Shown: positions 1-14,574, counted from the first letter of the stretch. The stretch is DNA of 64,000 nt from Halobellus sp. MBLA0158 (GCF_041477585.1 NZ_JBGNYA010000001.1:1426001-1490000), one strand, 5' to 3'. The notes: generated from the letters alone by a model not told the origin. Translations and numbers: made by a program.

Positions 1-132
1 CCGGACGAGGCCGTCGGCGACTCTGTGTGCGTGCTCGTCCGCGACACCGCCTTCGGTGAGCACCGTTTCGACGAACGATCGCAGTGACTCGCTATCGACG
101 TGAACTGGACTATCTGCTTTCGGTTCGGACAT
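1..132 (-). CDS. Ldh family malate/L-lactate dehydrogenase-like oxidoreductase (N-terminal fragment)
   Basis: The reading frame starts at the ATG complementary to 130-132 and runs off the left edge, so only about 44 N-terminal residues are visible. They read as acidic residues followed by a helix with SLRSFVETVL, then GVADEHAHRVADGLVR. This is the typical opening of the Ldh_2 family (NAD(P)-dependent malate, L-sulfolactate or ureidoglycolate dehydrogenases), where a GVP-x-x-HA-x-x-VAD-x-LV pattern starts the first helical domain. It lies 111 bp downstream of, and co-directional with, the SDR gene, so the two may form one operon. The substrate cannot be told from the fragment. Confidence 0.7.
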   Translation of the reverse strand, partial: MSEPKADSPVHVDSESLRSFVETVLTEGGVADEHAHRVADGLVR

Positions 133-243
133 ACTCCCTCGCGACTTGCTCGGTTGAACTCATGTGTTCTTTCGCTCCGTGTTCTCGGGGGCTGGTCTGA
201 TGGCGTCTCCCGGTGCTGGGACGTCGTGGACGGTCGCGGTCTT

Positions 244-1008
244 CTACTGCGCGGTCGTTCCCCCGTCGATGTTCACGACGGCGCCGTTGACGTTCCGGGC
301 GCCCTCCGATGCGAGGTACGTGGCCAGTTCCGCGATGTCGCTGGGTTCGTTCAGCCGGCGGATCGGGATTGCCTCCCGTCGCTCTTCCACCCACTCGGGG
401 TTTTCCTCTCTGACTTCCTCGTTTATCGCCGTCTTCGTGGTGCCTGGGGCGATCGCGTTCACGTTGACGCCTTTGGGTCCGAACTCCACGGCCAGCTGGC
501 GGGTCAACGCGTTGACGCCACCCTTGCTCGAACAGTAGACGGGGAGATTCTCGATGCCGCGCTCGCCCGCCTCCGAGGAGATGTTGATGAGCGTCCCGTC
601 GGTCTCGACGAGCGACGGGAGCGCGGCCTTGGCGAGCCGCATCGGCCCGGTGAGATTGACGTCGATCACCAGTTCGATGTCCGATTCGTCCGTCTCGGTG
701 ATCGGTCCCCGCGTCATCGCGCCGGCGCTGTTGAATGCGATGTCCAACGGACCGAACTCTTCGATCGCGGCCTCGACAGCGGCATCCACCGTAGACTGAT
801 CGGTCAGATCACACTCGACGAAGGCGGCCTCGCCGCCGTCCTCCCGGATGACCTCGTGAGTCGGTGTTCCGCCGGACCGCGGCTCCTCGCGGATGTCCCC
901 GACGACGACCTTCGCGCCTTCCCGACCGAACCGTTCGGCAACTGCCCGTCCGATTCCCGAGGAAGCGCCGACTACGAACGCTACGTCACCGTCTAGCTGA
1001 TCAACCAT
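244..1008 (-). CDS. SDR family NAD(P)-dependent oxidoreductase
   Basis: A 254-residue classical short-chain dehydrogenase. The N-terminal Rossmann motif GASSGIGR follows the first strand, NSAG stands at the usual NNAG position, and the catalytic Ser and YCSSK (Tyr-x3-Lys) are present. The C terminus GAVVNIDGGTTAQ is typical of the FabG-like subgroup. I chose the start at MVDQLDGD because it begins directly at the Rossmann strand and lies about 20 bp after a TATA-like element; an upstream in-frame ATG adds 20 untypical residues. It is divergent from the IclR regulator at 1527 and precedes an Ldh-type dehydrogenase. Likely role: oxidation of an alcohol intermediate in the local catabolic pathway; substrate unknown. 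Confidence 0.88.
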   Translation of the reverse strand: MVDQLDGDVAFVVGASSGIGRAVAERFGREGAKVVVGDIREEPRSGGTPTHEVIREDGGEAAFVECDLTDQSTVDAAVEAAIEEFGPLDIAFNSAGAMTRGPITETDESDIELVIDVNLTGPMRLAKAALPSLVETDGTLINISSEAGERGIENLPVYCSSKGGVNALTRQLAVEFGPKGVNVNAIAPGTTKTAINEEVREENPEWVEERREAIPIRRLNEPSDIAELATYLASEGARNVNGAVVNIDGGTTAQ

Positions 1009-1028
1009 ACCCGGGCTATTGAGATAGA

Positions 1029-1041
1029 AATATAAATATCT
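1029..1041 (-). promoter_or_regulatory. TATA-like promoter element of the SDR gene
   Basis: On the minus strand this reads GATATTTATATTT, 21-33 bp before the SDR start codon at 1008. That spacing suggests a leaderless or nearly leaderless transcript, which is common in haloarchaea. The first IclR-type palindrome lies about 46 bp further upstream, a position compatible with activation. Confidence 0.5.
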
Positions 1042-1086
1042 TACCCGGACTCCGTCGAGCGGTCTCATAGCTGTCCCGAGCAGTTG

Positions 1087-1101
1087 TCCAACACTGTTGG
1101 A
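1087..1101. promoter_or_regulatory. IclR-type operator candidate, site 1
   Basis: TCCAAC-ACT-GTTGGA is a perfect 6-bp inverted repeat with a 3-nt spacer. The same arms recur at 1335 and 1462 in the control region shared with the divergent IclR gene. It is closest to the SDR promoter. Confidence 0.6.
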
Positions 1102-1334
1102 AGATGTGTGTGATTAATCATCAGAGACATCTCGCCGCAGACGCCGCAAACGGGCCTCTGTGTCTGAATCTTCCGAATTGAGGCGTTCTCCGACCACGGG
1201 AGAAAGCATCACCATCGTTTACCAGCCGATTCATCCGTTTAGCTCCTGTCAATCCCTTCGGGATACTTGACTGCGCCGTCGAACGGGCTCCGAAGACGGT
1301 GAAGAGTGCGGCAAAACCCCGGCAGAATCGGCCG

Positions 1335-1349
1335 TCCAACGACGTTGGA
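1335..1349. promoter_or_regulatory. IclR-type operator candidate, site 2
   Basis: TCCAAC-GAC-GTTGGA is a perfect 6-bp inverted repeat with the same arms and spacer length as site 1, near the middle of the SDR-IclR control region. No gene is apparent in the surrounding 518 bp (1009-1526). Confidence 0.6.
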
Positions 1350-1461
1350 TCGAGTGATCGTCGAATTCGGCGGAAGTGTTCTATCTTTCAAGAACAGTAT
1401 ATAACGAATGATCGCTGTGGTTTGTCGCCGACCGTTCCGTTCGATTTCCTCGGTGTCGTAA

Positions 1462-1476
1462 TCCAACAATGTTGTA
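1462..1476. promoter_or_regulatory. IclR-type operator candidate, site 3 (one mismatch)
   Basis: TCCAAC-AAT-GTTGTA has the same architecture with one mismatch in the right arm. It sits about 20 bp upstream of a T/A-rich element (1498-1507) that precedes the IclR start codon at 1527. This fits autoregulation by the adjacent regulator. Confidence 0.55.
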
Positions 1477-1526
1477 TCGATTCACCGGATCATAACCTAT
1501 TTTTATGCAGGTATCGATCATCGCGT

Positions 1527-2309
1527 ATGGCAAAGAAAGAGAATCAGGGTGGCTCACGAAACCGCATCAAAGCCATCAGTACGATGTTCACGATCGTCGA
1601 CGGCCTGCGGGAGTTGGAAACGGCCGGCGTGTCGGAACTCGCTGACCACCTGGATATGCCGTCGAGCACCGTCCACATCTATCTGAAGACCTTGGAGGAG
1701 GAGGGATTCGTCCTCAACGACGACGGCCAATACCGTTCCAGTCTGCGGTTCTTGGAACTCGGCGGGGACATCCGGCAGCGGATGAGCATCTTCCGCACCG
1801 TTCGTCCTCAGGTCGACGAGCTTTCGGCCCAGACGAACGAGGTCGCCAACCTCGGAATCGAAGAGGACGGCAAACGGGTCCTGTTGTACACCTCGGAACC
1901 CTCGGAGGGCGTGTTCGACAATTCACCCGTCGGACAGTACACGCATATGCACTGGACCGCGCTCGGAAAAGCGCTCCTCGCGCAGTTGCCCGACCAGCGA
2001 ATACACGACATCGTCGATCGACACGGGCTTCCGGAAGCGACCGACCGAACGATCACGGACCGGGAAACGCTCTTCGAACGAATCGAGACCATTCGCGACC
2101 GCGGCTTCTCCATCGAGGACGAAGAGCGACGCCGGGGAATCAAGGCGCTCGCCGTCCCCATACAGTACGACAGCAATCCGTCGCCTCCGGCCGCGGTTTC
2201 CATCTCGGGACCGAAGCGACGGATCGGTGAGGAGAGTTACGACGGACTGCTCGATGCGATCAAGAACGCGGTCAACGTCAGCGAACTTCGGTACAAGCAC
2301 TACCAGTGA
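1527..2309 (+). CDS. IclR family transcriptional regulator
   Basis: A 260-residue regulator. The N-terminal winged helix-turn-helix (about residues 12-75) contains ISTMFTIVDGLRE, VSELADHLDMPSSTVHIYLKTLEEEGFV and YRSSLRFLELG. It is followed by the IclR effector-binding domain, with HMHWTALGKALLAQLP and the C-terminal RGIKALAVPI and AVSISGPKRR motifs. The ATG at 1527 is preferred because it gives the normal IclR N terminus and follows a T/A-rich promoter. It is divergent from the SDR gene, and three matching palindromes fill the space between, so it probably controls that operon and itself. The effector is unknown; in haloarchaea IclR proteins often act as activators of catabolic genes. Confidence 0.92.
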   Translation: MAKKENQGGSRNRIKAISTMFTIVDGLRELETAGVSELADHLDMPSSTVHIYLKTLEEEGFVLNDDGQYRSSLRFLELGGDIRQRMSIFRTVRPQVDELSAQTNEVANLGIEEDGKRVLLYTSEPSEGVFDNSPVGQYTHMHWTALGKALLAQLPDQRIHDIVDRHGLPEATDRTITDRETLFERIETIRDRGFSIEDEERRRGIKALAVPIQYDSNPSPPAAVSISGPKRRIGEESYDGLLDAIKNAVNVSELRYKHYQ

Positions 2310-2496
2310 CGCCGGCACTCGAGTCGATTACCGCGGATGCATCTCGACTGCGGCTGTCCTGCGACGCCCTCTATATAACTAGTGTACGTATGTTATCTCG
2401 TTGTTTCCTCGAACGTGTTCGTCAGAGCACGTTCTCTGGACTGAAAGACGGCGACTGAGATCCAACCCTCGGACACGAGCCCTTGACACAGAGACG

Positions 2497-3276
2497 TTAC
2501 GCCATATCGGAACCGTGGACGAGGTTGAGTTCGACTTCGTTCGTCGCCGCGAGCACCCGATCTGCGATCTCGTTCCGGCACCTCGACTCGGGCATCCGAT
2601 GCGCCGCGCCGGCGACGCTGATCGCCCCACGGACGCCCTCCTCGTCGACGATGGCGGCGCCGACGGCGTGGAGCCCGTCGATCGACTCCTCGAAGTTCAA
2701 CGCGTAGCCCCGCTCGCGGATCTCGTCCAGCTCGGCGAACAGCTGCTCCCGCGACGAGAGCGTGTGGTCAGTTCGCTGTGAGAGCCCGCGCTGTTCGATT
2801 ATCTGTTCGACTCGGGCGTCCGGTAGCTCTGCGAGTATCGCTTTGCCCCCAGAAGTCGTGTGTAACGGGACGTGCCGGCCGATACGGGCGTCCGTCGCCA
2901 CGACGTTCTCGCCGATCGCTCCGTGAATGAACACGCCCTGCCCCCGCTCTTCGACGTGACACCATGCGCGCTCGTCGACGTCCGCGGCGAGCGCCTCCAC
3001 CTTCGGTCGAGCGATCTGATACAGTTCGTTTCGGTATTGCCGGTAGACCCCGTAGTCCAGAAATCGCAGGCTGAGTCGGTACACGCCGTCGGACTTCGTC
3101 GCGTATCCGCACTCGTGGAGCGTCTTGAGATACCGGTGGACCGAGCCCTTGGACGCGTCGAGGCGCTCTGCCACCTCCGACACGCGCAGGCCGTCGTGTT
3201 CCTTGAGCAGCGTGACGATGCGGAGCAGTTTGGCCCCCGATTTGACCGTGCCCGACGGGAGCGCGTCGTTTCGCAT
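2497..3276 (-). CDS. IclR family transcriptional regulator
   Basis: A 259-residue IclR protein, convergent with the preceding IclR gene. The N-terminal wHTH shows LRIVTLLKEHDGLRVSEVAE, DASKGSVHRYLKTLHECGYA and YRLSLRFLDYG. The effector domain has PLHTTSGGKAILAELPD, GLHAVGAAIVDEEG and GAISVAGAAHRMPE. The start at MRNDALPSG is chosen because upstream in-frame residues are not IclR-like. It is divergent from the amidohydrolase-Rieske-dioxygenase operon at 3742, which it most plausibly regulates. The effector is not deducible. Confidence 0.92.
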   Translation of the reverse strand: MRNDALPSGTVKSGAKLLRIVTLLKEHDGLRVSEVAERLDASKGSVHRYLKTLHECGYATKSDGVYRLSLRFLDYGVYRQYRNELYQIARPKVEALAADVDERAWCHVEERGQGVFIHGAIGENVVATDARIGRHVPLHTTSGGKAILAELPDARVEQIIEQRGLSQRTDHTLSSREQLFAELDEIRERGYALNFEESIDGLHAVGAAIVDEEGVRGAISVAGAAHRMPESRCRNEIADRVLAATNEVELNLVHGSDMA

Positions 3277-3710
3277 ACCGAAACCATTCGCCCAGTATGT
3301 AATGAATATTTCGACGAGACCGCCATCGGCTTCGGCGCGATCTGGTGTCCTCATTCTCTCCGATTGGCAGCGATGCGTTGGCCCGTGGTGAGGATAGATG
3401 AGACGACCAATCGGTTTCACGATCGAGAACCGTTTGAGTCGTCAATAACAAATGTACGGATGTGAGCCGGTTGGTTCCTCACGTCGGATTTGCCACGCTG
3501 ATCGGTTCGGAAAACGCACGTGTTCGGCGAATATGTACCCGAAATCGGTTTTTGACGTATATCGGGTATTTTCTGTCGATCCATCGCGACACCCCGATCG
3601 TTTCTCATTCCGGAACTCGGCGAATGGACCGTCCGTGGAGACGGTGTTCGATACTCCCGGGCCCTCGGTCGTCGTGTGGAAATCGGCTGACAAACCGAGT
3701 GCATCCAAAT

Positions 3711-3720
3711 CTATATGTAT
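3711..3720 (+). promoter_or_regulatory. TATA-like promoter of the amidohydrolase-Rieske-dioxygenase operon
   Basis: CTATATGTAT lies 22-31 bp before the ATG at 3742, the spacing expected for a leaderless haloarchaeal transcript. The remainder of the 465-bp divergent region 3277-3741 is non-coding. I see no repeat of the TCCAAC-N3-GTTGGA palindromes found upstream of the other IclR gene. Confidence 0.5.
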
Positions 3721-3741
3721 TATTAGATCCACGCCGAGCAT

Positions 3742-4881
3742 ATGGGATCGTCAATCCAGCGGTTAGACTCGGCTGCCGAGGTCCCCGAGGAGGCGTTCGA
3801 GACCGAGGTGATCGATCTGGACTTCCACGTGAATCCGCTCGAAGAGGAACTCGAGCCATATATCGAGGACGAGCGGGCGCTCGATCGGCTCACGACGGAG
3901 TTCGGGATGTGGCCGATCCCCGACAAGTGGGACGCCGCGTACGCCATCGCCGAGGGCAACGAGGGCCTGTTCACACAGGGCCGCGCGGAGTACCCCGAGG
4001 ACGTCTGGGAGGCCTGCGAGAAGTTCGGTATCGACACGCCGATCGTCAACGCCGCGCTCAATATGCTACCCCAGCAGCACCACCCGGTGCTGAAGAACGC
4101 GGTGCTGAAGGCCGGAAACTCCTATATGCTCGATAACTTCGTCGACGAGGGCATCCCGACCGCGCTCTCGATCGCGAAGTGGGACGTCGACCACGCGCTC
4201 GCGGAACTGGACCGCTGGGGCGAGGAGGACGACGTCGTCGCGGTGTACAGTTGGTTCGACCCGCGGAAGCCCTGGGGCGTCGAGAAGTTCGATCCCGTCT
4301 TCGAGAAGCTCGAATCCCTCGGGCTGCCGCTCTTGCTCCACGGCTCGCTCGCGTTCTGGCCGCAGCACTCCTACGTCGGCGACGAGATGTTGACCTGGAC
4401 CGAGGTGTTGGGGCTCGACTGGCCCTTCCACGGGATGGTGAACACGGCCAATATGATTATGCGCGGCGTGTTCGATCGGTACCCCGATCTGAACGTGGTC
4501 TTCCAGGAGGCCGGCCACTGGTGGATTCCGTTTATGCGGTACCGGATGGACGAGTTCTACGAGATGCACCCCGAGGACATCCAGATCACGCCGCGGAAGT
4601 TCGACGCTGGCGAACACTACCTCGACCGCGCCCCAAGCGAATACCTCCGCGACAACATCTACGTCTGCACACAGCCGATGGCGCTCCCGCGCCGGGCGGG
4701 CGAGGCCGAGAGTATGCTGGATCTCAGTATGGCCCGGGACACCTTCCTCTACTCGTCGGACTGGCCGCATCAGACGCTCGATCCCCCGACGTGGTTCTTC
4801 ACGAGCCGGGCGTTCCGCGAGGACGAGGAGCTCCGCGACAACGTCCTCCACCAGAACGCGAAAGACATCCTGAGGTTCTGA
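3742..4881 (+). CDS. Amidohydrolase-family (amidohydrolase_2, decarboxylase-like) protein
   Basis: A 379-residue member of the metal-dependent amidohydrolase_2 superfamily, which contains ACMSD, gamma-resorcylate decarboxylase and related C-C lyases. Visible elements are the N-terminal metal motif D-L-D-F-H-V-N (residues 25-31, the DxDxH variant rather than HxH), LPLLLHGSLAF with a second metal His, QEAGHWWIPFMRYRMDEFY with a third His region, and the C-terminal FLYSSDWPHQ carrying the conserved Asp. It heads an operon with a Rieske protein (2-bp gap) and an extradiol dioxygenase, so decarboxylation or hydrolysis of an aromatic acid or ring-cleavage product is plausible. The exact reaction cannot be assigned. 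Confidence 0.82.
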   Translation: MGSSIQRLDSAAEVPEEAFETEVIDLDFHVNPLEEELEPYIEDERALDRLTTEFGMWPIPDKWDAAYAIAEGNEGLFTQGRAEYPEDVWEACEKFGIDTPIVNAALNMLPQQHHPVLKNAVLKAGNSYMLDNFVDEGIPTALSIAKWDVDHALAELDRWGEEDDVVAVYSWFDPRKPWGVEKFDPVFEKLESLGLPLLLHGSLAFWPQHSYVGDEMLTWTEVLGLDWPFHGMVNTANMIMRGVFDRYPDLNVVFQEAGHWWIPFMRYRMDEFYEMHPEDIQITPRKFDAGEHYLDRAPSEYLRDNIYVCTQPMALPRRAGEAESMLDLSMARDTFLYSSDWPHQTLDPPTWFFTSRAFREDEELRDNVLHQNAKDILRF

Positions 4882-4883
4882 GT

Positions 4884-5276
4884 ATGTCCGAATCGACGAA
4901 TCCGACCACGACCATCGACGGCGACGAGTACACGAAAGTGGCCGAGACCGACGACATCGACGTCGGTCGCGGCATCGCGGTGGACGTAGACGGTATCGAG
5001 GTCGCCGTGTTCAACGTCGACGGCGACTTCTACGCGATCAGCAACCGCTGTTCCCACCAGCACGCGCCGATGTGCAAGGCCGGCGAGCGGAAGATCAACG
5101 CCGATCACACCTGGACCGAATCCCGCGGCGGCGTCAACGCCGAAGACTGCACCGTCTCGTGCCCGTGGCACCTCTGGGAGTGGGACCTCGAAACCGGCGA
5201 GAACGAGGCCTCGGGCCAGCGCATCGCCACGTTCGACGTGACCGTACGCGACGGGGAAGTCTGGGTCCGAGTGTGA
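4884..5276 (+). CDS. Rieske [2Fe-2S] ferredoxin-like protein with an enlarged cluster-binding loop
   Basis: A 130-residue soluble Rieske domain protein. The first cluster pair is C-S-H in ISNRCSHQHAPMC and the second is C-P-W-H in VSCPWHLWEWDLETG; both Cys-x-His and Cys-x2-His are intact. The spacing between the two boxes is about 34 residues, where Rieske ferredoxins usually have 15-17. The extra segment carries two more Cys and KINADHTWTESRGG. The strand after the second box matches biphenyl-dioxygenase-type ferredoxins. It starts 2 bp after the amidohydrolase stop. Likely an electron carrier or small redox subunit for the neighbouring catabolic enzymes. Confidence 0.85.
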   Translation: MSESTNPTTTIDGDEYTKVAETDDIDVGRGIAVDVDGIEVAVFNVDGDFYAISNRCSHQHAPMCKAGERKINADHTWTESRGGVNAEDCTVSCPWHLWEWDLETGENEASGQRIATFDVTVRDGEVWVRV

Positions 5277-5315
5277 TCCGGCCCCGAACAACGATCCAAC
5301 ACCAACGAGACACCA

Positions 5316-6215
5316 ATGAGTGACCTGCAACGAATCGAACACGCGAAGCTGGCGGTGACCGACCTGGAAGACGCACGGCGATTCTACACCGACGCGATGG
5401 GACTCGTCGAACGCGGCGAAACGGACGGAACCGTCTATTTCGGCCGTGGGTACGACAGCAACTTCGACCTGGCCGTCACCGAAGGCGGGACCGGGATCGA
5501 GCACTTCGCCGTCCGCGCTATCGACTCGGCGGCCGTCGACGGCTACGAGGAGCGACTCCGTGATCGGGGCGTCGACACGGCCCGAGTCGACGGCGCCGAA
5601 CCGGGACAGCGGGCCGGGATCCGATTCGAGCTGCCCGGCGGGGTCCCGATGGAGATCGTCGCCGTCGAGGACGAGGCGTACCCGCACTCGAACGTCTCGG
5701 CGACGGATCGCGCGGGACACGCGCCCTCCGCGGTCGACCACATCCAGTTCTTCACGCCCGATCTCGACGCGGATCTGGCGTTCCTCCGGGACGCCGTGGG
5801 ACTGCACGTCTCCGATCTGGTCGGTCCCCGGGACGACCCGGAGAATGCCTTCCTCCGGTGTAACACGCTGCATCACGACATCGCACTGAAGCACAAGCCG
5901 GAACTGTCCGAGACCAGTCTCCATCACTTCGCGTGGGGATACGACAGCATCGAACATATGAAGCTCTTCCTCGATACGGTGGTCGGACGCGGCGCGGACT
6001 TCGAGCGCGGCATCGGCCGCCACTTCGCCGGGGACAACCTCTACGCGTACTTCTGGGAACCGGGCGGGAACCGATTCGAGATGTGTGCGGAGATGGCCGA
6101 GGTGAAGACGACGGAGCCGAACCACGTCGTCGATTACGAGACTGCGACGACCGCGTGGGGGCCGGGCGCTCCCGAGTCATTCGACGAGGGGTCGGGATTG
6201 GCGAGCGAAGACTGA
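5316..6215 (+). CDS. VOC-family extradiol ring-cleavage dioxygenase-like protein
   Basis: A 299-residue two-module vicinal-oxygen-chelate protein. The N-terminal module begins IEHAKLAVTDLEDARRFY, and the catalytic C-terminal module begins AVDHIQFFTPDLDADLAFL. Candidate Fe(II) ligands are H142 (VDHIQF), H204 (LHHFAW) and E255 (RFEMCAEM). Their spacing matches the His-His-Glu triad of type I extradiol dioxygenases such as BphC and catechol 2,3-dioxygenase. It is the third gene of the amidohydrolase-Rieske operon, after a 39-bp gap. Likely role: O2-dependent meta cleavage of a catechol-like ring. Other VOC functions are possible, but the C-terminal triad makes a dioxygenase the best call. Confidence 0.85.
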   Translation: MSDLQRIEHAKLAVTDLEDARRFYTDAMGLVERGETDGTVYFGRGYDSNFDLAVTEGGTGIEHFAVRAIDSAAVDGYEERLRDRGVDTARVDGAEPGQRAGIRFELPGGVPMEIVAVEDEAYPHSNVSATDRAGHAPSAVDHIQFFTPDLDADLAFLRDAVGLHVSDLVGPRDDPENAFLRCNTLHHDIALKHKPELSETSLHHFAWGYDSIEHMKLFLDTVVGRGADFERGIGRHFAGDNLYAYFWEPGGNRFEMCAEMAEVKTTEPNHVVDYETATTAWGPGAPESFDEGSGLASED

Positions 6216-6308
6216 TACCCCTCACCCGCCGGCGCCACCTTCGTCCGACGAGGAACGCAGAAAACCCAAACAATAATAATGATGGAGTTGACAACCCTAC
6301 GAGAAGGT

Positions 6309-7619
6309 ATGACAAGCGAGGAGTACGGCGTCGACCGTCGCACAGTGCTAAAAATCGGGGCTACGTCCGGACTGGCGGGTCTCGCGGGGTGTACCACCGG
6401 TTCCTCCGGTTCCGACGAGGGCGGTTCGGACGGATCGGGAGCCACGACCGGCACCACGATGAGTTCCCAAGGCGGGTCGAGCGAACCGATCACGATCGGG
6501 ACGACGCTCCCGGAGAGCGGGTCGTACTCGTCGATGGCCAAACACATCCGCGCCGGCTACGAGATGGGCGTCCAGTACGTCAACGACAACGGCGGCATCG
6601 ACGGCCGGCCGCTCGAACTGATCATCAAGGACGACGAGAGCGAGGCCCAGAAGACCCGCTCGGGGCTCAACGAGATCGTCTCCAACAACGACGTAGCGAT
6701 GCTGTGGGGGAGCTTCTCCAGCCTCCTCGTCACCGCCGGCAGCGCGTTCGCCGAATCCCAGGAACTTCCGTTCATCGGCACCACCTTCGCCTACCAGGAG
6801 CCCCACCAGGAGAAGAACTACAAGTGGACGTTCGCGCCGTTCCCCAAGAGCCGGGACCAGGTCCGCACCACGAAGAGCTGGTTCGACGCCCTCGACGACG
6901 GCCCCGAGCGCATCGCCATCTGGGAGCTCAACTCCGGGTGGGGCGAGGAGCTGGCCAATCTGTGGGAGCAGTCGTTCAAGGGGACGGACTACGAGGTCGT
7001 GCTCCGCCAGAAGTACCAAATCGGGAACAGCGACTTCACGACGCTCATCTCGCAAACTCAGGACGCGGACGCCGACGCCATCCTCTCGAATCCGGTCCCG
7101 CCGGACGGCATCACCGCGGCCAAGCAGATGAAACAACAGGGCTACACGCCGAACCTCGTGAACTTCATCCGCGCGACCGACCCGCGAGCGTGGACGACGG
7201 CGCTCGGGGGGACCGGCGACTACTTCGCCAGCACCGGCGTCGGGTGGCTCGCCGGACTCGATACCACCGGGACGGGCGCTCTCATCGAACGGTATCACGA
7301 CCGTCAGGGCGTCTCGGGCGACGCCGTGCCGGTGAACTCTGTCGGCGCCGCGTTCACGGTCGTCCAGGTCGCGGCCAGCGCGCTCCGAACGGCCGGCTCG
7401 ACGGACCCGTCGGCCGTCCGGGACGCACTCTTGAATCAGCAGTTCGATACGGTGATGGGGCAGTTCGGCTTCGACGACACCGGGATGCCGAAGGAGGGCG
7501 AGATGGTCCCTGCGGTCAGGCAGTGGCAAGACGGCAAACAGATGCTCGTCCATCCCGAGCCCAGCGGTGACTACGCGATGGAACCCGAGTATCCGATGCC
7601 GACTTTCGATAGCCGCTAG
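6309..7619 (+). CDS. ABC transporter substrate-binding lipoprotein (branched-chain amino acid/aromatic type)
   Basis: A 436-residue type I periplasmic-binding-fold protein of the LivJ/LivK (Peripla_BP_6) family. The N terminus carries a Tat signal (DRRTVLKIG) and the lipobox LAGC with the lipidated Cys at residue 28, then a Ser/Gly/Thr-rich linker. Mature hallmarks are ITIGTTLPESGSYSS, GVQYVNDNGGIDGRPLELIIKDD and AMLWGSFSSLL. An in-frame ATG at 6279 would add ten residues; the ATG at 6309 places the Tat twin arginine at the usual distance. It follows the dioxygenase by 93 bp. No permease or ATPase genes of this importer are in the window. Members of this family also bind aromatic acids, which would suit the operon. 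Confidence 0.9.
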   Translation: MTSEEYGVDRRTVLKIGATSGLAGLAGCTTGSSGSDEGGSDGSGATTGTTMSSQGGSSEPITIGTTLPESGSYSSMAKHIRAGYEMGVQYVNDNGGIDGRPLELIIKDDESEAQKTRSGLNEIVSNNDVAMLWGSFSSLLVTAGSAFAESQELPFIGTTFAYQEPHQEKNYKWTFAPFPKSRDQVRTTKSWFDALDDGPERIAIWELNSGWGEELANLWEQSFKGTDYEVVLRQKYQIGNSDFTTLISQTQDADADAILSNPVPPDGITAAKQMKQQGYTPNLVNFIRATDPRAWTTALGGTGDYFASTGVGWLAGLDTTGTGALIERYHDRQGVSGDAVPVNSVGAAFTVVQVAASALRTAGSTDPSAVRDALLNQQFDTVMGQFGFDDTGMPKEGEMVPAVRQWQDGKQMLVHPEPSGDYAMEPEYPMPTFDSR

Positions 7620-7632
7620 CCAAATATATCAT

Positions 7633-7652
7633 ATTTCAATATAATTTGAAAT
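7633..7652 (+). terminator. Small hairpin downstream of the binding-protein gene
   Basis: ATTTCAA-TATAAT-TTGAAAT forms a 7-bp inverted repeat 14 bp after the stop codon, inside A/T-rich sequence. It could end the catabolic operon transcript, although archaeal termination usually relies on T-tracts more than on hairpins. Confidence 0.3.
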
Positions 7653-7999
7653 TCTGTAATATTAGTGGTCGTACTATGATTCAGGTAGAAATATGCAGAT
7701 CTCGATGGATGAATCTGGCGTAGTAATGTGAAAATAACCCGGTATTGAACATAGTTTGTTTGGAAATACCTGTATTAGTAGTGAGTTCTTATATATTCTA
7801 ATATAATACCGGTCGGATCACTGCTGCGGTCAGCAAACAAAAACTTCAGAATCCGTTCAAGACATCATACCTATGTGGTAATAATAACAAAATAAATTTT
7901 ATCTGGTACTTATACAGAGATGGTTGCCGATCGACCGAACCGAAATGCGAATCCAGCCGCTGGGATTCCCACTATTGGCCCGGCAGCCGCGACGCGCTC
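7653..7999. other. AT-rich gene-free spacer
   Basis: About 350 bp of markedly A/T-rich sequence with many stop codons in all frames, unlike the GC-rich surroundings. I see no coding frame, tRNA or transposase remnant. It separates the ring-cleavage cluster from the iron-uptake genes and may mark an old integration or rearrangement junction. Confidence 0.6.
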
Positions 8000-8170
8000 T
8001 CAGCGTCGGACTTTCATCGGGCGCTCGGCGGTGATGAAGGAGTCGTCGCCGGCGGTGAAGGTGATCCCCCCGTAGTCGGGGCGGTCCACGTGCCAGTCGG
8101 GTAGTTCCGGGATGTCGTAGTCCGCCGGCGTCCCGTACGCGGCCGCGATCGCCCACTCTCTGGCTCGCAT
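8000..8170 (-). CDS. Small conserved-looking protein of unknown function downstream of the siderophore-binding protein
   Basis: A 56-residue frame starting 2 bp after the stop of the iron-siderophore binding-protein gene, which implies translational coupling. It is rich in Trp, Tyr, Asp and Pro (TPADYDIPELPDWHV, RPDYGGITFTAGDDSFITAERP) and ends in basic residues. It has no signal peptide or membrane segment. The composition does not look like random frame, but I do not recognise a family. It could be a genuine small protein of the iron operon or the surviving C-terminal end of a larger gene whose 5' part was lost. Confidence 0.55.
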   Translation of the reverse strand: MRAREWAIAAAYGTPADYDIPELPDWHVDRPDYGGITFTAGDDSFITAERPMKVRR

Positions 8171-8172
8171 CC

Positions 8173-9369
8173 TCAGAACGCTCCAGTGACGATGTCCGCT
8201 ACGGCCTGCCGATCGAACAGTTCCTCGTCGCCGGTCACGTCGCCGAACGTCTCGGGGTAGAGCTGTTTGGCGGCCCGCTCTGTCAGGAAGAGGTTGTGAA
8301 TCGGGCCCTGATAGAGATACCCGCCGCGGTAGACCCGGCCGTTCTGGACGGCGCGCAGTTCGCTTCCGACCGGGTGATCCTCCATATACGCGAGGACGGT
8401 CTCGCGGAACTCCGTGGCGGACTTCCGTTCGTGGCCGCGCACGAGGATCACCTCGGGGTCGATCTCCAGGAGGTTCTCGTAGTCGAATTCGCCCCGGTTC
8501 GTCGTGCTGAGGTTCTCGATATCCGTGCCAGAGAGGGCGTCTGTCACGCCGAGGTCGCGCCACTGCTTCTTGCTGGTCCCGCGGTCGTTGAGGCGGTAGG
8601 GCGAGAACGTCTCCGGGGAGTTCGTCCCCTCGTAGGTCAGGAACACGTCCGGGCGCTCGTCGGCCGGGGGGAGCCGCTGCTGGATCGAAGCGATGAACTC
8701 GTCGTGCAGCGCCGCGAACGCCTCGTAGCGCTCCCGTTCTTGGAACAGCGTGGCCATCTTCTCGAAGGCCTCATAGAGCGTGTAGAACCGGTAGTCGTGC
8801 CAGTCGTCCGAGCGCCGGAAGATGAGGTTGCCGACGAACGGCCCGACGTTCTCGGCGATCTCGTCGACGTCGGACTGCTCCCAGTCGAACCAGTTTTTGA
8901 GCATCTCCGGGTCGTACAGGTGGACGTCGCTGTCGAGCGCGTAGAACTGCTCTTTGGTCCGCACCTCGGGGTGTTCCTCGATGCGGTCGCGGTCGACGCT
9001 CACGCCGGGGAGTTCGTCGTAGACGTAGGTGTAGTACCGATCCGCGCCGCCGATCCCCGTGATGCCGTCGGCCCGTCCGAGCGCGACCGCCATATCGGCG
9101 TAGTCGCCGCTGTAGGGGACCCACGTCTCGGGGACCGACTCGAACGTGACCTCGCCGACCGGCTCCATCGAGACCGAGTACGACCGGTCCTCGGCCGTCC
9201 GGGTCGCCGTCGTCGTCGATTCCGTCTCTGTTTCGGTACTGCTCTCGGTCGGCGTCGACTCGTCGCCGCCGGCGCAGCCGGCGAACAGTCCGCCGCCGAG
9301 GACCGCGCCGCCGTACTTGACGTACTCCCGCCGCGTCGGCCCGGCGAGGTCGTCCGTGTCTGGTGCCAT
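8173..9369 (-). CDS. ABC transporter substrate-binding lipoprotein, iron-siderophore type (FepB/BtuF fold)
   Basis: A 398-residue Tat-exported lipoprotein. The N terminus has TRREYVKYGG and the lipobox FAGC (Cys32), followed by a Ser/Thr/Glu-rich linker typical of haloarchaeal surface lipoproteins. The mature part has the Peripla_BP_2 pattern: ETWVPYSGDYADMAVALGRADGITGIGG, a central helix with EIAENVGPFVGNLIF, then VILVRGHERK and the C-terminal LFLTERAAKQLYPE. This family binds ferric siderophores, cobalamin or haem. Two DtxR/Idr-like palindromes overlap its promoter, supporting an iron role. The cognate permease and ATPase are not in the window. Confidence 0.88.
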   Translation of the reverse strand: MAPDTDDLAGPTRREYVKYGGAVLGGGLFAGCAGGDESTPTESSTETETESTTTATRTAEDRSYSVSMEPVGEVTFESVPETWVPYSGDYADMAVALGRADGITGIGGADRYYTYVYDELPGVSVDRDRIEEHPEVRTKEQFYALDSDVHLYDPEMLKNWFDWEQSDVDEIAENVGPFVGNLIFRRSDDWHDYRFYTLYEAFEKMATLFQERERYEAFAALHDEFIASIQQRLPPADERPDVFLTYEGTNSPETFSPYRLNDRGTSKKQWRDLGVTDALSGTDIENLSTTNRGEFDYENLLEIDPEVILVRGHERKSATEFRETVLAYMEDHPVGSELRAVQNGRVYRGGYLYQGPIHNLFLTERAAKQLYPETFGDVTGDEELFDRQAVADIVTGAF

Positions 9370-9373
9370 ACGA

Positions 9374-9389
9374 TTTAGGCTCGCCTAAA
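9374..9389. promoter_or_regulatory. DtxR/Idr-type iron-box palindrome, proximal site
   Basis: TTTAGGC-TC-GCCTAAA is a perfect 7-bp inverted repeat with a 2-nt centre, 5-20 bp upstream of the siderophore-binding-protein ATG. It resembles the TTAGGnTnnCCTAA-type sites of metal-dependent DtxR/IdeR repressors, whose haloarchaeal members include Idr1/Idr2. Binding here would block initiation when iron is plentiful. Confidence 0.7.
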
Positions 9390-9398
9390 CAAATAAAG
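9390..9398 (-). promoter_or_regulatory. TATA-like element of the siderophore-binding-protein gene
   Basis: On the minus strand CTTTATTTG lies about 21-29 bp before the ATG at 9369, between the two iron-box palindromes. The arrangement lets a repressor dimer on either side cover the promoter. Confidence 0.45.
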
Positions 9399-9409
9399 CG
9401 CTTTCGAAA

Positions 9410-9425
9410 TTTAGGCGAACCTAAA
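9410..9425. promoter_or_regulatory. DtxR/Idr-type iron-box palindrome, distal site
   Basis: TTTAGGC-GA-ACCTAAA matches the proximal site with one mismatched arm position. The two centres are 36 bp apart. The site also lies 76 bp upstream of the divergent Gfo/Idh/MocA gene and could influence it. Confidence 0.68.
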
Positions 9426-9500
9426 ATTGAAGCTCGCGCGACAGGAGTTACACCGACGTGTCGCCGGAGTTATTTCGACGCCCGCCGTCGGACGTCGGAT

Positions 9501-10598
9501 ATGGAGGACGCCCTCGCCGACTACCTCGATGAGTTCACGCGCCGCGACTGGCAGACGCTCGACCCCGACGACGTCGACGACCCCGTCCGGGTCGCGGTCG
9601 TCGGACTCGGATGGTTCGCCCGCGAGTGGGCGCTCCCGGGCATCGCGCGCTCGGCGTTCACCGAGGCGACCGTCGTCACCGACGTCGACGCGGACGCCGT
9701 CGAGACCGTCGCCGTCGAACACGACGTCCGCGGAGTCACGCCCGACGAACTCCGGTCCGGCGCCGTCGCCGACGAGTACGACGCGGTCTATGTCGCCACG
9801 CCGAACGCGACCCACCTGGTGTACGTGCGGGCCGCCGCCGAGCAGGGGAAGGCGATCCTCTGTGAGAAGCCACTGGAGGCGACGGTCGACCGCGCCCGGG
9901 AGCTCGTGGCCGCCTGCCGCGACGCCGACGTCCCGCTGATGGTCGGCTACCGGATGCAGACCGATCCCGCGGTGCGGCGGCTGCGGGACCTCCTAGAGGC
10001 GGGCTTCGCCGGCGACGTCGTCCACGTCCACGCGACGATGTCGCAGACGATGCTCGGCGAACTCGGCAGCGACCACGACCAGTGGCGGCTCGACCCCGAT
10101 CTCTCGGGCGGCTGTGCGCTGATGGACATCGGCGTCTACCCGCTGAACACGACCCGGTTCGTCCTCGGTTCGGACCCGGTTCGGGTGTCGGGGCGGACCC
10201 GGACGGAACACGAGGCGTTCGCGGGCGTCGACGAACACGCGACGTTCAGATTAGAGTACCCCGGCGGCGTCGACGCGATGTGTACGGTGAGCCAGAACGC
10301 CCAGCACGCCAGCCGGCTCGAAGTCACCGGGACCGACGCCCGATTGATCCTCGATCCGGCGTTCTACGAGCGCGAGGACCGGGGCTTCGCGGTCGTTCGC
10401 GAGGGGACCCGCGTCGACGTCGACTTCGACCAGGTCCACCAGATCGAAGAGGAGTTCGCCTACTTCGGGCACCAGCTGCTGGCAGAGGAACCGTTCTACC
10501 CGGACGGCGACCACGCGCTGGGCGATATGCGCGTCCTCGACGCCCTCTACGAGTCGGCCGAGATGGGCCGAGCGGTCGCTCTCGGCGACGACGCGTAG
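9501..10598 (+). CDS. Gfo/Idh/MocA family oxidoreductase (sugar 1-dehydrogenase-like)
   Basis: A 365-residue NAD(P)-dependent dehydrogenase. The N-terminal Rossmann domain has VAVVGLGWFAREWALPGIA, then AVYVATPNATH and the family signature ILCEKPLE carrying the catalytic Lys. The C-terminal domain has SGGCALMDIGVYPLNTTRFVLG. The N-terminal leader DYLDEFTRRDWQTLDPDD resembles haloarchaeal glucose/xylose dehydrogenases of this family. The ATG at 9501 is chosen because it begins that leader. It is divergent from the iron-binding-protein gene and convergent with an aldo/keto reductase. Likely oxidises an aldose or cyclitol; substrate not certain. Confidence 0.88.
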   Translation: MEDALADYLDEFTRRDWQTLDPDDVDDPVRVAVVGLGWFAREWALPGIARSAFTEATVVTDVDADAVETVAVEHDVRGVTPDELRSGAVADEYDAVYVATPNATHLVYVRAAAEQGKAILCEKPLEATVDRARELVAACRDADVPLMVGYRMQTDPAVRRLRDLLEAGFAGDVVHVHATMSQTMLGELGSDHDQWRLDPDLSGGCALMDIGVYPLNTTRFVLGSDPVRVSGRTRTEHEAFAGVDEHATFRLEYPGGVDAMCTVSQNAQHASRLEVTGTDARLILDPAFYEREDRGFAVVREGTRVDVDFDQVHQIEEEFAYFGHQLLAEEPFYPDGDHALGDMRVLDALYESAEMGRAVALGDDA

Positions 10599-10616
10599 GG
10601 CTCGGTGCCCCTCGCG

Positions 10617-11453
10617 CTACGGCTCGATGCCGTAGACGTCGCCCGTCCAGTCGCGTGCGGGGTGGTCGTACACCGGCTGGTCGCGGTCGCGCTCGTCGAG
10701 TCGCCTGCGGTCTTCGTCGTCGAGCGACCAGTCGAGGTCGGCGTTGGCCCGCACGTGCTCGGGGGTCGACGAGCGCGGCAGGGCCACGATGTCGCGGTCG
10801 AGCGCCCAGCGGAGGATCACCTGTGCGGGGTGTTTGTCGTACGTCTCGGCCAGTTCTTGGACCACCTCGTCGTCGAAGACATCCGTGCGCGCCAGCGGCG
10901 CCGCCGCCTCGATCACGGTGTCGGACTCGCGGCAGTACTCGACGAGGTCGGGCCGCTGGAGCCACGGGTGGAACTCGATCTGGTTGACCGCGATCGGGAC
11001 GTCGGCGATGTGGTGCGCACAGCTCAGCTGGTACGCGCTGAAGTTCGAGACGCCGACGTTGCGGACGAGCCCGCGATCGTGGAGCCGCTCCATCGCCTGC
11101 AGCGACTCCCGCAGCGAGATCGCGGGGTTCGGCCAGTGGATGAGATAGAGGTCGAGGTAGTCGGTCCCCAATCGATCCAGGGACGCCTCGCACGACCGGA
11201 TCAGCGACTCGTAGTCGAGGTTCTTCGCGAGCACCTTCGAGGTGAGAAACACCTCGTCGCGGTCGTACTCGGCGAGGACGTCGCCGATGACGGCCTCGTT
11301 TTGGTACCCCTCGGCGGTGTCGATGTGGGTGTAGCCCGCCTCCAGGGCCGCGCGGACGCTGGCTTCGGTCTCCTCGTCGCTCAGGTCGTAGGTGCCCAAC
11401 CCGAGCGCGGGCAGCTCGTCGCCGCTCGGGAGGGTGTGGGCTGGGATGCTCAC
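10617..11453 (-). CDS. Aldo/keto reductase
   Basis: A 278-residue AKR with the complete catalytic tetrad Asp45, Tyr50, Lys73 and His106, seen in HIDTAEGYQNE, TSKVLAKN and YLIHWPNP. Later strands VGVSNFSAYQL, VNQIEFHPWLQ and the cofactor-binding end ALPRSSTPEHVRAN are intact. It is closest to bacterial 2,5-diketo-D-gluconate reductase-like and prostaglandin F synthase-like AKRs. It converges on the Gfo/Idh/MocA gene with an 18-bp gap. It reduces aldehydes or keto sugars with NADPH; physiological substrate unknown. Confidence 0.9.
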   Translation of the reverse strand: MSIPAHTLPSGDELPALGLGTYDLSDEETEASVRAALEAGYTHIDTAEGYQNEAVIGDVLAEYDRDEVFLTSKVLAKNLDYESLIRSCEASLDRLGTDYLDLYLIHWPNPAISLRESLQAMERLHDRGLVRNVGVSNFSAYQLSCAHHIADVPIAVNQIEFHPWLQRPDLVEYCRESDTVIEAAAPLARTDVFDDEVVQELAETYDKHPAQVILRWALDRDIVALPRSSTPEHVRANADLDWSLDDEDRRRLDERDRDQPVYDHPARDWTGDVYGIEP

Positions 11454-11485
11454 GGGCGTATGTCATCGGATCGCAGATTCAAAGT

Positions 11486-11503
11486 GTCGCTTCCGGAAGC
11501 GAC
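11486..11503. promoter_or_regulatory. Perfect 18-bp palindrome between the AKR and LOV-kinase genes
   Basis: GTCGCTTCCGGAAGCGAC is a perfect palindrome, 33 bp upstream of the aldo/keto reductase start and 103 bp before the kinase start. Its core TTCCGGAA resembles the arms of the TTCCGG-N5-CCGGAA repeats at 27.8-28.3 kb but without the spacer. It may be an operator or simply a chance GC-rich palindrome. Confidence 0.35.
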
Positions 11504-11605
11504 GCCCGGCCGCCGTTGAGCTGCCGTTCGCGCTGACTCCCCCGAATATTAGGAAAAGAGCTTTCTATCTACTGAACGACGTAATACTACGGTTGAGGCC
11601 CTAAT

Positions 11606-12856
11606 ATGCAGATTCGCTCGTCGGTGTCGCAGTACGTGTCCCCGCTCCAGATTACGCTGCTGTATCTCCTCTTCGGGTTCGTCGCGCTGTTCATCTCCGA
11701 CATCCTCTTTCCGATCGTCCTCGACGGGCCGCGCCTCCGCCTGATCCAGAGCATCAAGGGCGCCGTCGAGATCCTGCTCACCGCGATCTTCATCTACCTG
11801 ATCGTCTGGTACAGCTGGCGCGATCTGCGCCTGAAAGAGCGGGCGATCGACGAGGCTCCGATCGGGGTCGTCATCACCGACGACCGCGACGACGACAACC
11901 CCGTGATCTTCGCCAACGAGCGCTTTCAGGACCTGACCGGCTACGACAAATCGGAGATCGTCGGCCGCGACTGCCGGATCCTGCAAGGCGAACAGACCGA
12001 TCCCGAGTCCCGCGCGGAGATCCGGGCCGCCATCGACGACGACCGCCCCGTCTCGGTCGACATTCGGAACTACCGCAAGAACGGCGGAGTCTTCTGGAAC
12101 AAGGTCGACATCGCCCCGGTCAGGACCGACGACGAGGTCACACACTACGTGGGGTTCCAGACGGACATCACGGATCGGAAGATCAGGGAACAGCGCCTGG
12201 AGGTCCTGAACCGGGTGCTGCGGCACAACTACCGGAATCAGATGAACATCATCCAGGGCTACGTCTCCCGCCTCGCCGACGAGGAGACGGCGGACGCCGA
12301 TACGATCGGTCGGATCCAGCGCGCCATCGACCAGACGCTTTCGGTGACCGAGAGCGCCCACCGGACCGAGCGCGTTCTCGACACCGCCGTTACCGGCCGG
12401 AATCCGGTCGAACTCGACGCCCGACTCCGGGCAATCGTCGACGAGGCCCGCGAGGAGCATCCGGACGCCACCGTGACGCTCTCTTGCCCCGACGACGGGC
12501 CGATTCTCGTGGGCACCGCGGGTATCGAAGCGGCCGTCGAGGAGGCGGTCACGAACGCGCTGACGCACCACGGCGGCGACGACCCGACCGTCGAGGTACG
12601 AATGACGAGACCGCGCGAGGGGCGGGTCTCGATCGCGGTCCGCGACGACGGCCCGGGCATCCCCGACGAGGAGATCACCGCGGTCCGGCGAGGGGAGACC
12701 CAACTCTCCCACGGGACGAATATGGGACTGTGGATGATCCAGTGGCTCGTCACCTACGCCGGCGGGACGTTCTCGATCACCCAGAGCGACGCGTCGGGGA
12801 CGCTGATCGAACTGACGCTCCCGACGGTGGCTCCCTCCGCGGACCGCCAGCGGTAG
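11606..12856 (+). CDS. Membrane-bound LOV-domain histidine kinase (putative blue-light sensor)
   Basis: A 416-residue sensor kinase. Two membrane helices (about residues 14-38 and 50-70) precede a PAS/LOV domain (about 78-190), a dimerisation/phosphoacceptor helix with RHNYRNQMN (His207) and a HATPase domain with VTNALTHH, RDDGPGIP and GTNMGLWM. The PAS domain shows LOV hallmarks: GRDCRILQG with the adduct-forming Cys123, NYRKNGGVFWN with flavin-contacting Asn residues, and GFQTDITDR with the conserved Gln185. It should therefore bind FMN and form a light-driven cysteinyl adduct. No response regulator is adjacent. The kinase core is the haloarchaeal type with a diverged H-box. Light sensing is inferred from motifs only. 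Confidence 0.88.
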   Translation: MQIRSSVSQYVSPLQITLLYLLFGFVALFISDILFPIVLDGPRLRLIQSIKGAVEILLTAIFIYLIVWYSWRDLRLKERAIDEAPIGVVITDDRDDDNPVIFANERFQDLTGYDKSEIVGRDCRILQGEQTDPESRAEIRAAIDDDRPVSVDIRNYRKNGGVFWNKVDIAPVRTDDEVTHYVGFQTDITDRKIREQRLEVLNRVLRHNYRNQMNIIQGYVSRLADEETADADTIGRIQRAIDQTLSVTESAHRTERVLDTAVTGRNPVELDARLRAIVDEAREEHPDATVTLSCPDDGPILVGTAGIEAAVEEAVTNALTHHGGDDPTVEVRMTRPREGRVSIAVRDDGPGIPDEEITAVRRGETQLSHGTNMGLWMIQWLVTYAGGTFSITQSDASGTLIELTLPTVAPSADRQR

Positions 12857-12917
12857 CGACGCGTCGCTCGAAAGTATACGCGAAAAATAATAGTAATTTT
12901 ATTTTTACTTCTCGGGA

Positions 12918-13766
12918 TTAGCTGGTGTCTTCGACCACCGGATTCCGCAGCGTCCCGATCCCTTCGATCTCGACTTCGACCGTATCGCCCGGTTCGAGCA
13001 GTTCCGGCGGCTCTCGGAAGATACCGACGCCGCCCGGCGTCCCGGTGGAAATCACGTCACCCGGCCGGAGCGTCGTGATGCCGCTGATGTACTCGATCAG
13101 CTCCTCGACGCCGAAGATGAACTCCGCGGTGTTCGACGCTTGTTTCTGCTCGCCGTTGACCCGACATAATACCTCGACGCTTGATGGATCGAAGAAATGG
13201 TCAGGAACGAGAGTTGGACCCATCGGCGCGAACGTGTCGTAGCTCTTCCCGCGGAAGAACTGTTCGTCGGCGAACTGTGCGTCCCGCCCGCTGACGTCGT
13301 TGATGGCGGTGTAGCCAGCGACGTACTCGCGGGCGTTCGCCGCCGAGACGTCCTTCGCCGTCCGGCCGACGACGACGCCGAGTTCGACCTCGTAGTCCAC
13401 CTCCTCCAGTTCGGCGGGGTGGACGATGGGATCGGTCGGGTTCGTGACGGCCGTCCCCGCTTTTCCGAACAACAGCGGCCGCTCGGGGACGTCTTCGTCC
13501 TGTTCCTCGGCGTGGTCGTGGTAGTTGAGACCGACGCAGACGATCTTCCCCGGCCGCGGGACCGGCGCGAGTACCGACGCCTCGGCGGCGGGGATCGCGT
13601 CCTCGGAGGCCGCCTCGACGGCGTCTTCGACGACCCGGAGGAAGCCCGGATCGGTCAGCTGCTGGTAGGTCACTTCCTCGCGGAGCCCCGCGAGCGGGAC
13701 GATCGCCTCGTCGCGACGGACGCCCCACTGGGGGCTCCCGCCGGTGGTGTAGCGGACGAACTGCAT
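12918..13766 (-). CDS. Fumarylacetoacetate hydrolase (FAH) family protein, candidate 2,4-diketo-3-deoxy-acid-sugar hydrolase
   Basis: A 282-residue FAH-family enzyme. KIVCVGLNYHDHAEE opens the catalytic domain, followed by the metal-binding LEEVDYEVELGVVVGRT (E-x-E pattern), GYTAINDVSGRD, the substrate-contacting FFRGKSYDTFAPMGP, and the C-terminal RPGDVISTGTPGGVGIF. These proteins hydrolyse or dehydrate 2-keto acids using a divalent metal. In the diketo-hydrolase pathway of L-rhamnose, a FAH-family hydrolase cleaves 2,4-diketo-3-deoxy-L-rhamnonate to pyruvate and L-lactate, and the neighbouring genes fit that role. Alternative: a 2-keto-3-deoxy-pentonate dehydratase as in pentose pathways. 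Confidence 0.87.
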   Translation of the reverse strand: MQFVRYTTGGSPQWGVRRDEAIVPLAGLREEVTYQQLTDPGFLRVVEDAVEAASEDAIPAAEASVLAPVPRPGKIVCVGLNYHDHAEEQDEDVPERPLLFGKAGTAVTNPTDPIVHPAELEEVDYEVELGVVVGRTAKDVSAANAREYVAGYTAINDVSGRDAQFADEQFFRGKSYDTFAPMGPTLVPDHFFDPSSVEVLCRVNGEQKQASNTAEFIFGVEELIEYISGITTLRPGDVISTGTPGGVGIFREPPELLEPGDTVEVEIEGIGTLRNPVVEDTS

Positions 13767-13815
13767 CGTGTGCGGTTCGAAACGCGACTGACCTAACTGT
13801 TGTGCTCGCCGCCCG

Positions 13816-14574
13816 TCAGGAGTAGGTCAGGTTCACTTCGATGACGTTCGCGCTCCGGAGGATCTGTTCGATGATCTCGTCGGCGAACTCGTCGTCGCGC
13901 ATCCGGCTCTTGGGTTCGGAGACGCTCACCGCGGCGAGCGCGCGCCCGTTCTGGTCGGTGATCGGGGCCGCGACGCACCGCATTCCCTTCACCCGCTCCT
14001 CGTCGTCGAAGGCGTATCCGCGGTCGCGGACGCGCTCTAATTCCGCGAACAGCTCCTCCCTGTCGGTGACGGTGCGTTCCGTGACGGCCGGGAGCCCGTG
14101 CCGGTCGAGGATCGACTCGACCTCCTCTGTGGGCCGGAACGCCATGATCGACTTCCCGAGCGCCGTGGTCTGGAGCGGGACCCGCATCCCGGCGTGGGTG
14201 TCCAGTTGCACGGCGTCGGACCCTCGGGCCTTGTACAGGAACACCCCGAGGCCGTGCTCTTCGATCATCAGATTGGCGTGCTCGCCGGTCGTCTCGGCGA
14301 GCTCGTCGATCACCGACCGGGCGACGGTGAACACCTTCTGCCGGGACCGGGCCTGATTCCCCAGCTGCAGGAAGCGAGTGCCGACGTAGTACGTCTCGTC
14401 TTCCTTGACGAGGTACTCCTCGCGTTCGAGCGTCTGGAGGTGGTCGTAGACGGTGCTTGTCGGCCGGTCGAGATGCGCCGCCACCTCGGAGACGCCACCG
14501 CCGTCGATCTCGCGGAGCGCCTCGACGATCTCGAACGAGATCTTCGCCGCTTTGACCGGGACCGTCGTGCTCAT
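13816..14574 (-). CDS. IclR family transcriptional regulator of the sugar cluster
   Basis: A 252-residue IclR protein. The N-terminal wHTH has ISFEIVEALREIDGG, VSEVAAHLDRPTSTVYDHLQTLEREEYLV and YYVGTRFLQLG. The effector domain has VPLQTTALGKSIMAFRP, KGMRCVAAPITDQNG and AVSVSEPKSRMR. It sits inside the run of minus-strand sugar-catabolic genes, between the FAH enzyme (49 bp) and the LLM oxidoreductase (92 bp). It is the obvious candidate regulator of the pathway and importer. Haloarchaeal pentose pathways are activated by IclR-type XacR, which is a precedent for this arrangement. Confidence 0.92.
   Translation of the reverse strand: MSTTVPVKAAKISFEIVEALREIDGGGVSEVAAHLDRPTSTVYDHLQTLEREEYLVKEDETYYVGTRFLQLGNQARSRQKVFTVARSVIDELAETTGEHANLMIEEHGLGVFLYKARGSDAVQLDTHAGMRVPLQTTALGKSIMAFRPTEEVESILDRHGLPAVTERTVTDREELFAELERVRDRGYAFDDEERVKGMRCVAAPITDQNGRALAAVSVSEPKSRMRDDEFADEIIEQILRSANVIEVNLTYS

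Follow-up and report, generated by a model that had tools for sequence, protein, structure and literature searches.

Four adjacent genes of the haloarchaeon Halobellus sp. MBLA0158 raise the question of which enzyme a small Rieske protein serves when no Rieske oxygenase is encoded beside it, and what chemistry the operon as a whole performs. They occupy positions 3742-7619 of a 64,000-nt stretch (GCF_041477585.1, NZ_JBGNYA010000001.1:1426001-1490000; hereafter, the window) of a genome most closely related to Halobellus species. An earlier reading made from the DNA alone (the sequence-only reading) had described a ring-cleavage operon that includes a Rieske protein and an extradiol dioxygenase, and the analysis supports a compact operon of this kind. 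Open frames and Pfam searches bore out its coordinates and its list of four genes, with scores of 67.6 bits for Amidohydro_2 (cut-off 26.4), 54.6 for Rieske (20.3), 85.8 for Glyoxalase/dioxygenase (20.6) and 183.9 for Peripla_BP_6 (31.7). The four open frames lie on the same strand, with intergenic gaps of 2, 39 and 63 nt:

3742-4881, + strand, 379 aa: gene 1, an amidohydrolase-related dinuclear oxygenase (ARO) by Pfam PF04909 (Amidohydro_2), profile matches to SfbO/TruffO/AibH2, six metal ligands, a tree and an AlphaFold2 (AF2) model.
4884-5276, + strand, 130 aa: small Rieske [2Fe-2S] ferredoxin, by Pfam PF00355 and a C-x-H...C-x2-H motif.
5316-6215, + strand, 299 aa: gene 3, a type I (VOC) extradiol ring-cleavage dioxygenase (EDO), by TIGR03211, PDB 3hpv and its catalytic residues.
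6279-7619, + strand, 446 aa: ABC-type substrate-binding lipoprotein of the HAAT/LivJ family, by Peripla_BP_6.

Gene 1, previously taken for an amidohydrolase/decarboxylase, is by sequence and predicted fold an ARO, a member of the family of AibH2, SfbO and PtmU3. The published diagnostic of AROs is a set of six metal ligands (D25, H27, H211, E265, D337 and H340 in AibH2; PMC10401708), and the alignment places all six in gene 1 (D27, H29, H200, E256, D340 and H343). This ligand alignment covered every PF04909 protein from the fetched loci (L numbers below). The ARO-type proteins read DHHEDH, the exceptions being one Glu-for-Asp replacement (L124) and a few truncated frames without the first two positions, while xHHHDF or xHHHDY stands at these positions in the 14 non-ARO proteins, none of which had a Rieske gene of its own. 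A maximum-likelihood tree split ARO from non-ARO PF04909 proteins with 100/100 support, and the solved AROs fell on the side of gene 1. In a profile search, the best PDB relatives were 8sm7, 8sm9, 8sm6 and AibH2 (E-values from 1e-65 to 1e-87), with 8sm6-8sm9 and AibH1H2 at the top and PtmU3 lower, whereas decarboxylases reached 1e-31 or weaker. The AF2 model (mean pLDDT 84) pointed the same way: Foldseek ranks 1-20 were all AROs or AibH1H2, and VIA-align Z values of 35-39 with AROs fell to 31 with PtmU3 and did not exceed 30 with decarboxylases. Sequence identity to the solved AROs is only about 21-27%. As a member of this family, gene 1 would hold an Fe2 or Mn/Fe centre and perform an O2-dependent oxygenation.

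Like the AROs AibH2/AibG (Rhodococcus), SfbO, the TruffO proteins and PtmU3, gene 1 combines the PF04909 fold with the six metal ligands. Its surroundings are also similar, comprising a small Rieske ferredoxin encoded next to it (for PtmU3, none is reported) and a catabolic operon with a transport component (PMC10811679, PMC10401708). Unlike the operons of known AROs, that of the window is archaeal and includes an extradiol dioxygenase, and neither an AibH1-like partner nor a reductase gene is adjacent.

Almost certainly, the Rieske protein serves gene 1, because all five ARO genes of the host genome have an adjacent small Rieske gene. The protein carries the motif C56-x-H58...C93-x2-H96, and its gene starts 2 nt past the ARO stop codon. 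Of the nine Rieske proteins returned by a PF00355 search of the host genome, two belong to Rieske oxygenase alpha subunits, two appear to be respiratory, and the remaining five are small; each of the five ARO genes (5/5) adjoins one of these. Loci from a public-genome scan show the same pairing, and within the host genome it disfavours a remote Rieske oxygenase as the sole partner. Adjacent small Rieske proteins have been proposed as electron donors to AROs (PMC7782822, PMC10401708, PMC10811679), and the window protein is probably such a donor. The sequence-only reading was thus right that the operon lacks a Rieske oxygenase alpha subunit and that the Rieske protein has another partner: Pfam detected no Ring_hydroxyl_A alpha subunit among the annotated genes at 1-12000 of the window, and the two alpha subunits of the host genome are both encoded far from the operon.

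The window Rieske protein also has a long insert between its ligand pairs, 34 residues where the alphaproteobacterial L055 protein has 18. The long insert recurs in other ARO-linked Rieske proteins of haloarchaea, and it is possible that it acts as a docking feature. On one Halopenitus contig (L034, 8001-12933), two ARO-Rieske pairs lie within 5 kb, and of the two ARO frames the second is short, at 201 aa.

Gene 3 is, judging from its residues, a type I extradiol dioxygenase. The BphC-spaced His-His-Glu triad that had been noticed earlier was found at H142, H204 and E255, and the BphC-type second shell (H187, H236 and Y245) completes the six catalytic residues. The protein resembles catechol 2,3-dioxygenase, HpaD and BphC in its two-domain VOC architecture, 2-His-1-Glu triad and second shell, but differs from them in belonging to a haloarchaeal clade and in scoring beneath every NCBIfam equivalog cut-off (136.9 versus 320.2 bits for the catechol 2,3-dioxygenase model TIGR03211), so that no substrate class follows from the score. 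Its best PDB match is the catechol 2,3-dioxygenase 3hpv, and the composition of its gene (GC 65.8%, third-position GC 83%) gives no sign of foreign origin. Haloarchaeal relatives of 40-48% identity adjoin Rieske dioxygenase alpha/beta genes (L131, L137, L138 and L088), and a 36% identical relative adjoins a flavin hydroxylase (L139). In Halopenitus malekzadehii (L131) and G207 (L137/L138), an EDO 46-47% identical to that of the window stands beside a ring-activating oxygenase, as in the operon studied here; there, however, the oxygenase is a Rieske alpha/beta dioxygenase, whereas the window has an ARO and a separate Rieske ferredoxin. The gene slot beside related EDOs normally belongs to a diphenol-making enzyme, and the ARO/Rieske pair occupies it in the window.

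On balance, we consider it probable that the ARO/Rieske pair oxygenates an aromatic substrate, by some oxygenation, and that the product feeds the EDO; gene context makes an aromatic chemistry of the operon likely. The binding protein would capture an aromatic compound that, once imported, would become the substrate of the ARO/Rieske pair. The Rieske ferredoxin would relay electrons from a reductase to gene 1, which would activate O2 and oxygenate the substrate to an ortho-diphenol (catechol-type), and the EDO, with its catalytic residues in place, would open the diphenol ring. The ARO would then fill the place of the Rieske alpha/beta dioxygenase or flavin hydroxylase found beside related haloarchaeal EDO genes. 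That the pair specifically hydroxylates the ring is a more tentative proposal, about which we lean slightly towards doubt.

The association of AROs with ring-cleavage genes recurs outside the window. In 292 haloarchaeal genomes, 5 EDO genes lay no more than 5 kb from an ARO, where 0.43 were expected, and 10 gentisate-dioxygenase-like genes lay no more than 30 kb from one, where 1.2 were expected; these distance tests count orthologous islands as independent, which makes their P values too small and takes weight from the association. Co-occurrence in genomes is strong (Fisher 6e-7 for EDO and 6e-11 for gentisate-dioxygenase-like genes) but is confounded by lifestyle and phylogeny and does not serve as main evidence. 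EDO-linked AROs occupy at least two, probably three, places in the tree: that of the window, that of L118/L120-L123/L126 and that of L124, which sits on a long branch. In H. malekzadehii, an 83% identical ARO orthologue lies 12.4 kb from the 46% identical EDO relative, in an island (L131, 330-19683) of Rieske dioxygenase alpha/beta, short-chain dehydrogenase/reductase, EDO, class II aldolase, Tct-like transporter and ARO-Rieske pair, the transporter being recognised by eye and the other families by family search. The aldolase of this island shows a weak likeness to 3,4-dihydroxyphthalate decarboxylase. A second ARO lineage in Halobellus, also present in the host genome, forms an ARO-Rieske-EDO island (L118, G000:C1:2252000-2271000, at 45-13304) whose EDO gene is catechol-2,3-dioxygenase-like and which also holds an HpaI-type aldolase, a LIV-type transporter, a relative of syringate/vanillate O-demethylase and MTHFR; it probably represents methoxyaromatic catabolism in a haloarchaeon.

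In the loci L033, L037, L041 and L145 (the last from Haloarcula), an ARO about 70% identical to gene 1 has a gentisate-dioxygenase-like cupin as neighbour, joined in some of them by an FAA hydrolase and an arylmalonate-decarboxylase/racemase-family gene. A gentisate-type pathway is plausible for these clusters, which invites comparison with the salicylate 5-hydroxylase/gentisate pathway. Salicylate 5-hydroxylase is a Rieske oxygenase, and the cleavage enzyme of the window, unlike that of the gentisate pathway, is extradiol and not gentisate-type. The ARO-Rieske-cupin clusters (L145 9220-17435; L033, L037 and L041) are plasmid- or contig-borne. Alphaproteobacterial AROs (L053-L055) likewise adjoin a cupin, one resembling gentisate/5-aminosalicylate dioxygenase.

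A number of observations weigh against coupled oxygenation and ring cleavage in the operon. Among the loci examined, the directly adjacent order ARO-Rieske-EDO was found in the window only; the closest ARO orthologues, of 85-89% identity (L095-L097), have no adjoining EDO, and ring-cleavage genes are missing from the vicinity of most other AROs. Neither a reductase nor later meta-pathway genes adjoin the operon. The AROs that have been characterised attack aliphatic C-H bonds or N-dealkylate (PMC7782822, PMC10401708, PMC10811679): 2-aminoisobutyrate is hydroxylated by the Mn/Fe enzyme AibH2 (same sources), and SfbO, working with Mn/Fe or Fe2, N-dealkylates a surrogate substrate (PMC10811679). 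No ARO acting on an aromatic ring turned up in the literature searched, and the searches as a whole (aromatic AROs, haloarchaeal extradiol enzymes, PF04909 with Rieske) returned only AibH2/SfbO papers or unrelated work. The binding protein was called aromatic-type in the sequence-only reading, a label that finds no support in its best PDB sequence matches, which are amino-acid/amide binding proteins, at low similarity. It is 47% identical to a counterpart adjoining the ARO in Halobellus limi, and it travels with the ARO and not with the EDO, since H. limi has an IclR-ARO-Rieske-binding protein arrangement without an EDO. Given that the binding protein follows the ARO and matches amino-acid/amide types, something other than a simple aromatic acid may be the substrate. 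The N-terminus of this protein is twin-arginine-like, and its start is possibly the ATG at 6309.

The same observations lend themselves to an alternative in which the ARO/Rieske pair oxidises an unrelated imported substrate, for example an aliphatic or amino-acid-like one, while the EDO sits in the operon by chance and belongs to another pathway. The EDO-free H. limi operon, the top PDB matches of the binding protein and the aliphatic substrates of known AROs (PMC7782822, PMC10401708) all fit it, but the linkage of AROs to EDO and gentisate-dioxygenase-like genes exceeds chance and recurs in several lineages, and the gene order ARO-Rieske-EDO-binding protein is tight, and we regard this alternative as rather unlikely. 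A demethylation appears unlikely as well. Here, the ARO would strip the O-methyl (or N-alkyl) group of a guaiacyl-type aromatic through hydroxylation of the methyl carbon, so that the EDO would receive a catechol while the ring itself is not hydroxylated, a sub-case of the oxygenation-then-cleavage model. SfbO does perform an O2-dependent N-dealkylation (PMC10811679), AROs hydroxylate sp3 C-H bonds and the L118 island holds a syringate/vanillate O-demethylase relative; yet the folate-type demethylase of that island would make its ARO redundant for this step, and the ARO relatives linked to gentisate-dioxygenase-like genes suit ring hydroxylation better.

Two other explanations give the Rieske protein a different client, and both are highly improbable. 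Gene 1 might be an ordinary metal-dependent decarboxylase of the gamma-resorcylate/LigW/2,3-dihydroxybenzoate type, with the Rieske protein serving one of the remote Rieske oxygenases, whose two alpha subunits in the host genome make this conceivable. The PF04909 decarboxylases (gamma-resorcylate, LigW, 2,3-dihydroxybenzoate and ACMSD) do share the family and the TIM-barrel fold with gene 1, but they match it more weakly in both sequence and fold. Of the non-ARO PF04909 proteins examined, none has the six-ligand dinuclear set or a Rieske partner, whereas gene 1 has the full set and is followed after 2 nt by a Rieske gene, in keeping with the 5/5 pairing of the host genome. Ligands, tree, profile and predicted fold led us to reject a decarboxylase function for gene 1. 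Alternatively, the Rieske ferredoxin could mainly keep the iron of the EDO reduced, much as catechol 2,3-dioxygenase is reactivated by the plant-type ferredoxin XylT. The position of its gene between gene 1 and the EDO would agree with such a role; XylT, however, is not a Rieske protein, and AROs without an extradiol gene in their vicinity still keep the Rieske gene beside them.

Upstream of the operon, two features may bear on its expression:

2497-3276, - strand: IclR-family regulator, divergent from the operon (IclR_C, 116 bits by Pfam; the PcaR/PcaU/PobR model TIGR02431 is below cut-off, 143.9 versus 284.75 bits).
3711-3719, + strand: candidate TATA-like CTATATGTA, about 27 nt 5' of the ARO ATG, from direct sequence reading.

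The regulator had been described as dedicated and divergent. It is present and divergent, but the arrangement is not conserved, as the ARO orthologues carry a different IclR protein, about 36% identical, upstream in tandem. The spacing of the TATA-like element is as expected for a leaderless haloarchaeal transcript. Within the 465-bp divergent region, no DNA site for the regulator could be pinned down, its inverted repeats being weak and unremarkable. A short-chain dehydrogenase and a second IclR gene (244-2309) lie upstream of the operon's own IclR gene, and a FecB/BtuF-type substrate-binding lipoprotein gene follows directly after the operon on the opposite strand (8173-9369), with no permease seen adjoining it. 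At 12918-14574, 5 kb from the operon, an FAA hydrolase gene adjoins another IclR gene; the hydrolase is closest in NCBIfam to 2,4-didehydro-3-deoxy-L-rhamnonate hydrolase/HpaG and may act in sugar-acid or ring-fission metabolism.

AROs were known already as a widespread family, hundreds of predicted members having no known substrate and neighbourhoods with few function-telling genes (PMC10401708, 2023), and haloarchaeal members had been anticipated (PMC10401708). The new part is the coupling to ring-cleavage enzymes, and an aromatic role for an ARO is, as far as we found, undescribed. The identity of gene 1 shifts the question from the partner of the Rieske protein to what a haloarchaeal ARO oxygenates, and the window operon and its relatives, by linking a haloarchaeal/alphaproteobacterial ARO group to ring-cleavage enzymes, suggest a substrate class that is cheap to test. 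We put forward, with some reserve, that in haloarchaea an amidohydrolase-fold dinuclear (possibly Mn/Fe) oxygenase and its Rieske ferredoxin may hydroxylate rings for ring-cleavage dioxygenases, replacing Rieske dioxygenases or flavin hydroxylases. If so, the oxygenases that activate aromatic rings would gain a new type, and genes routinely annotated as amidohydrolase/decarboxylase would be oxygenases. Should ring hydroxylation prove to be the reaction, the enzyme would give the ARO family its first aromatic member and its first archaeal one with an assigned role.

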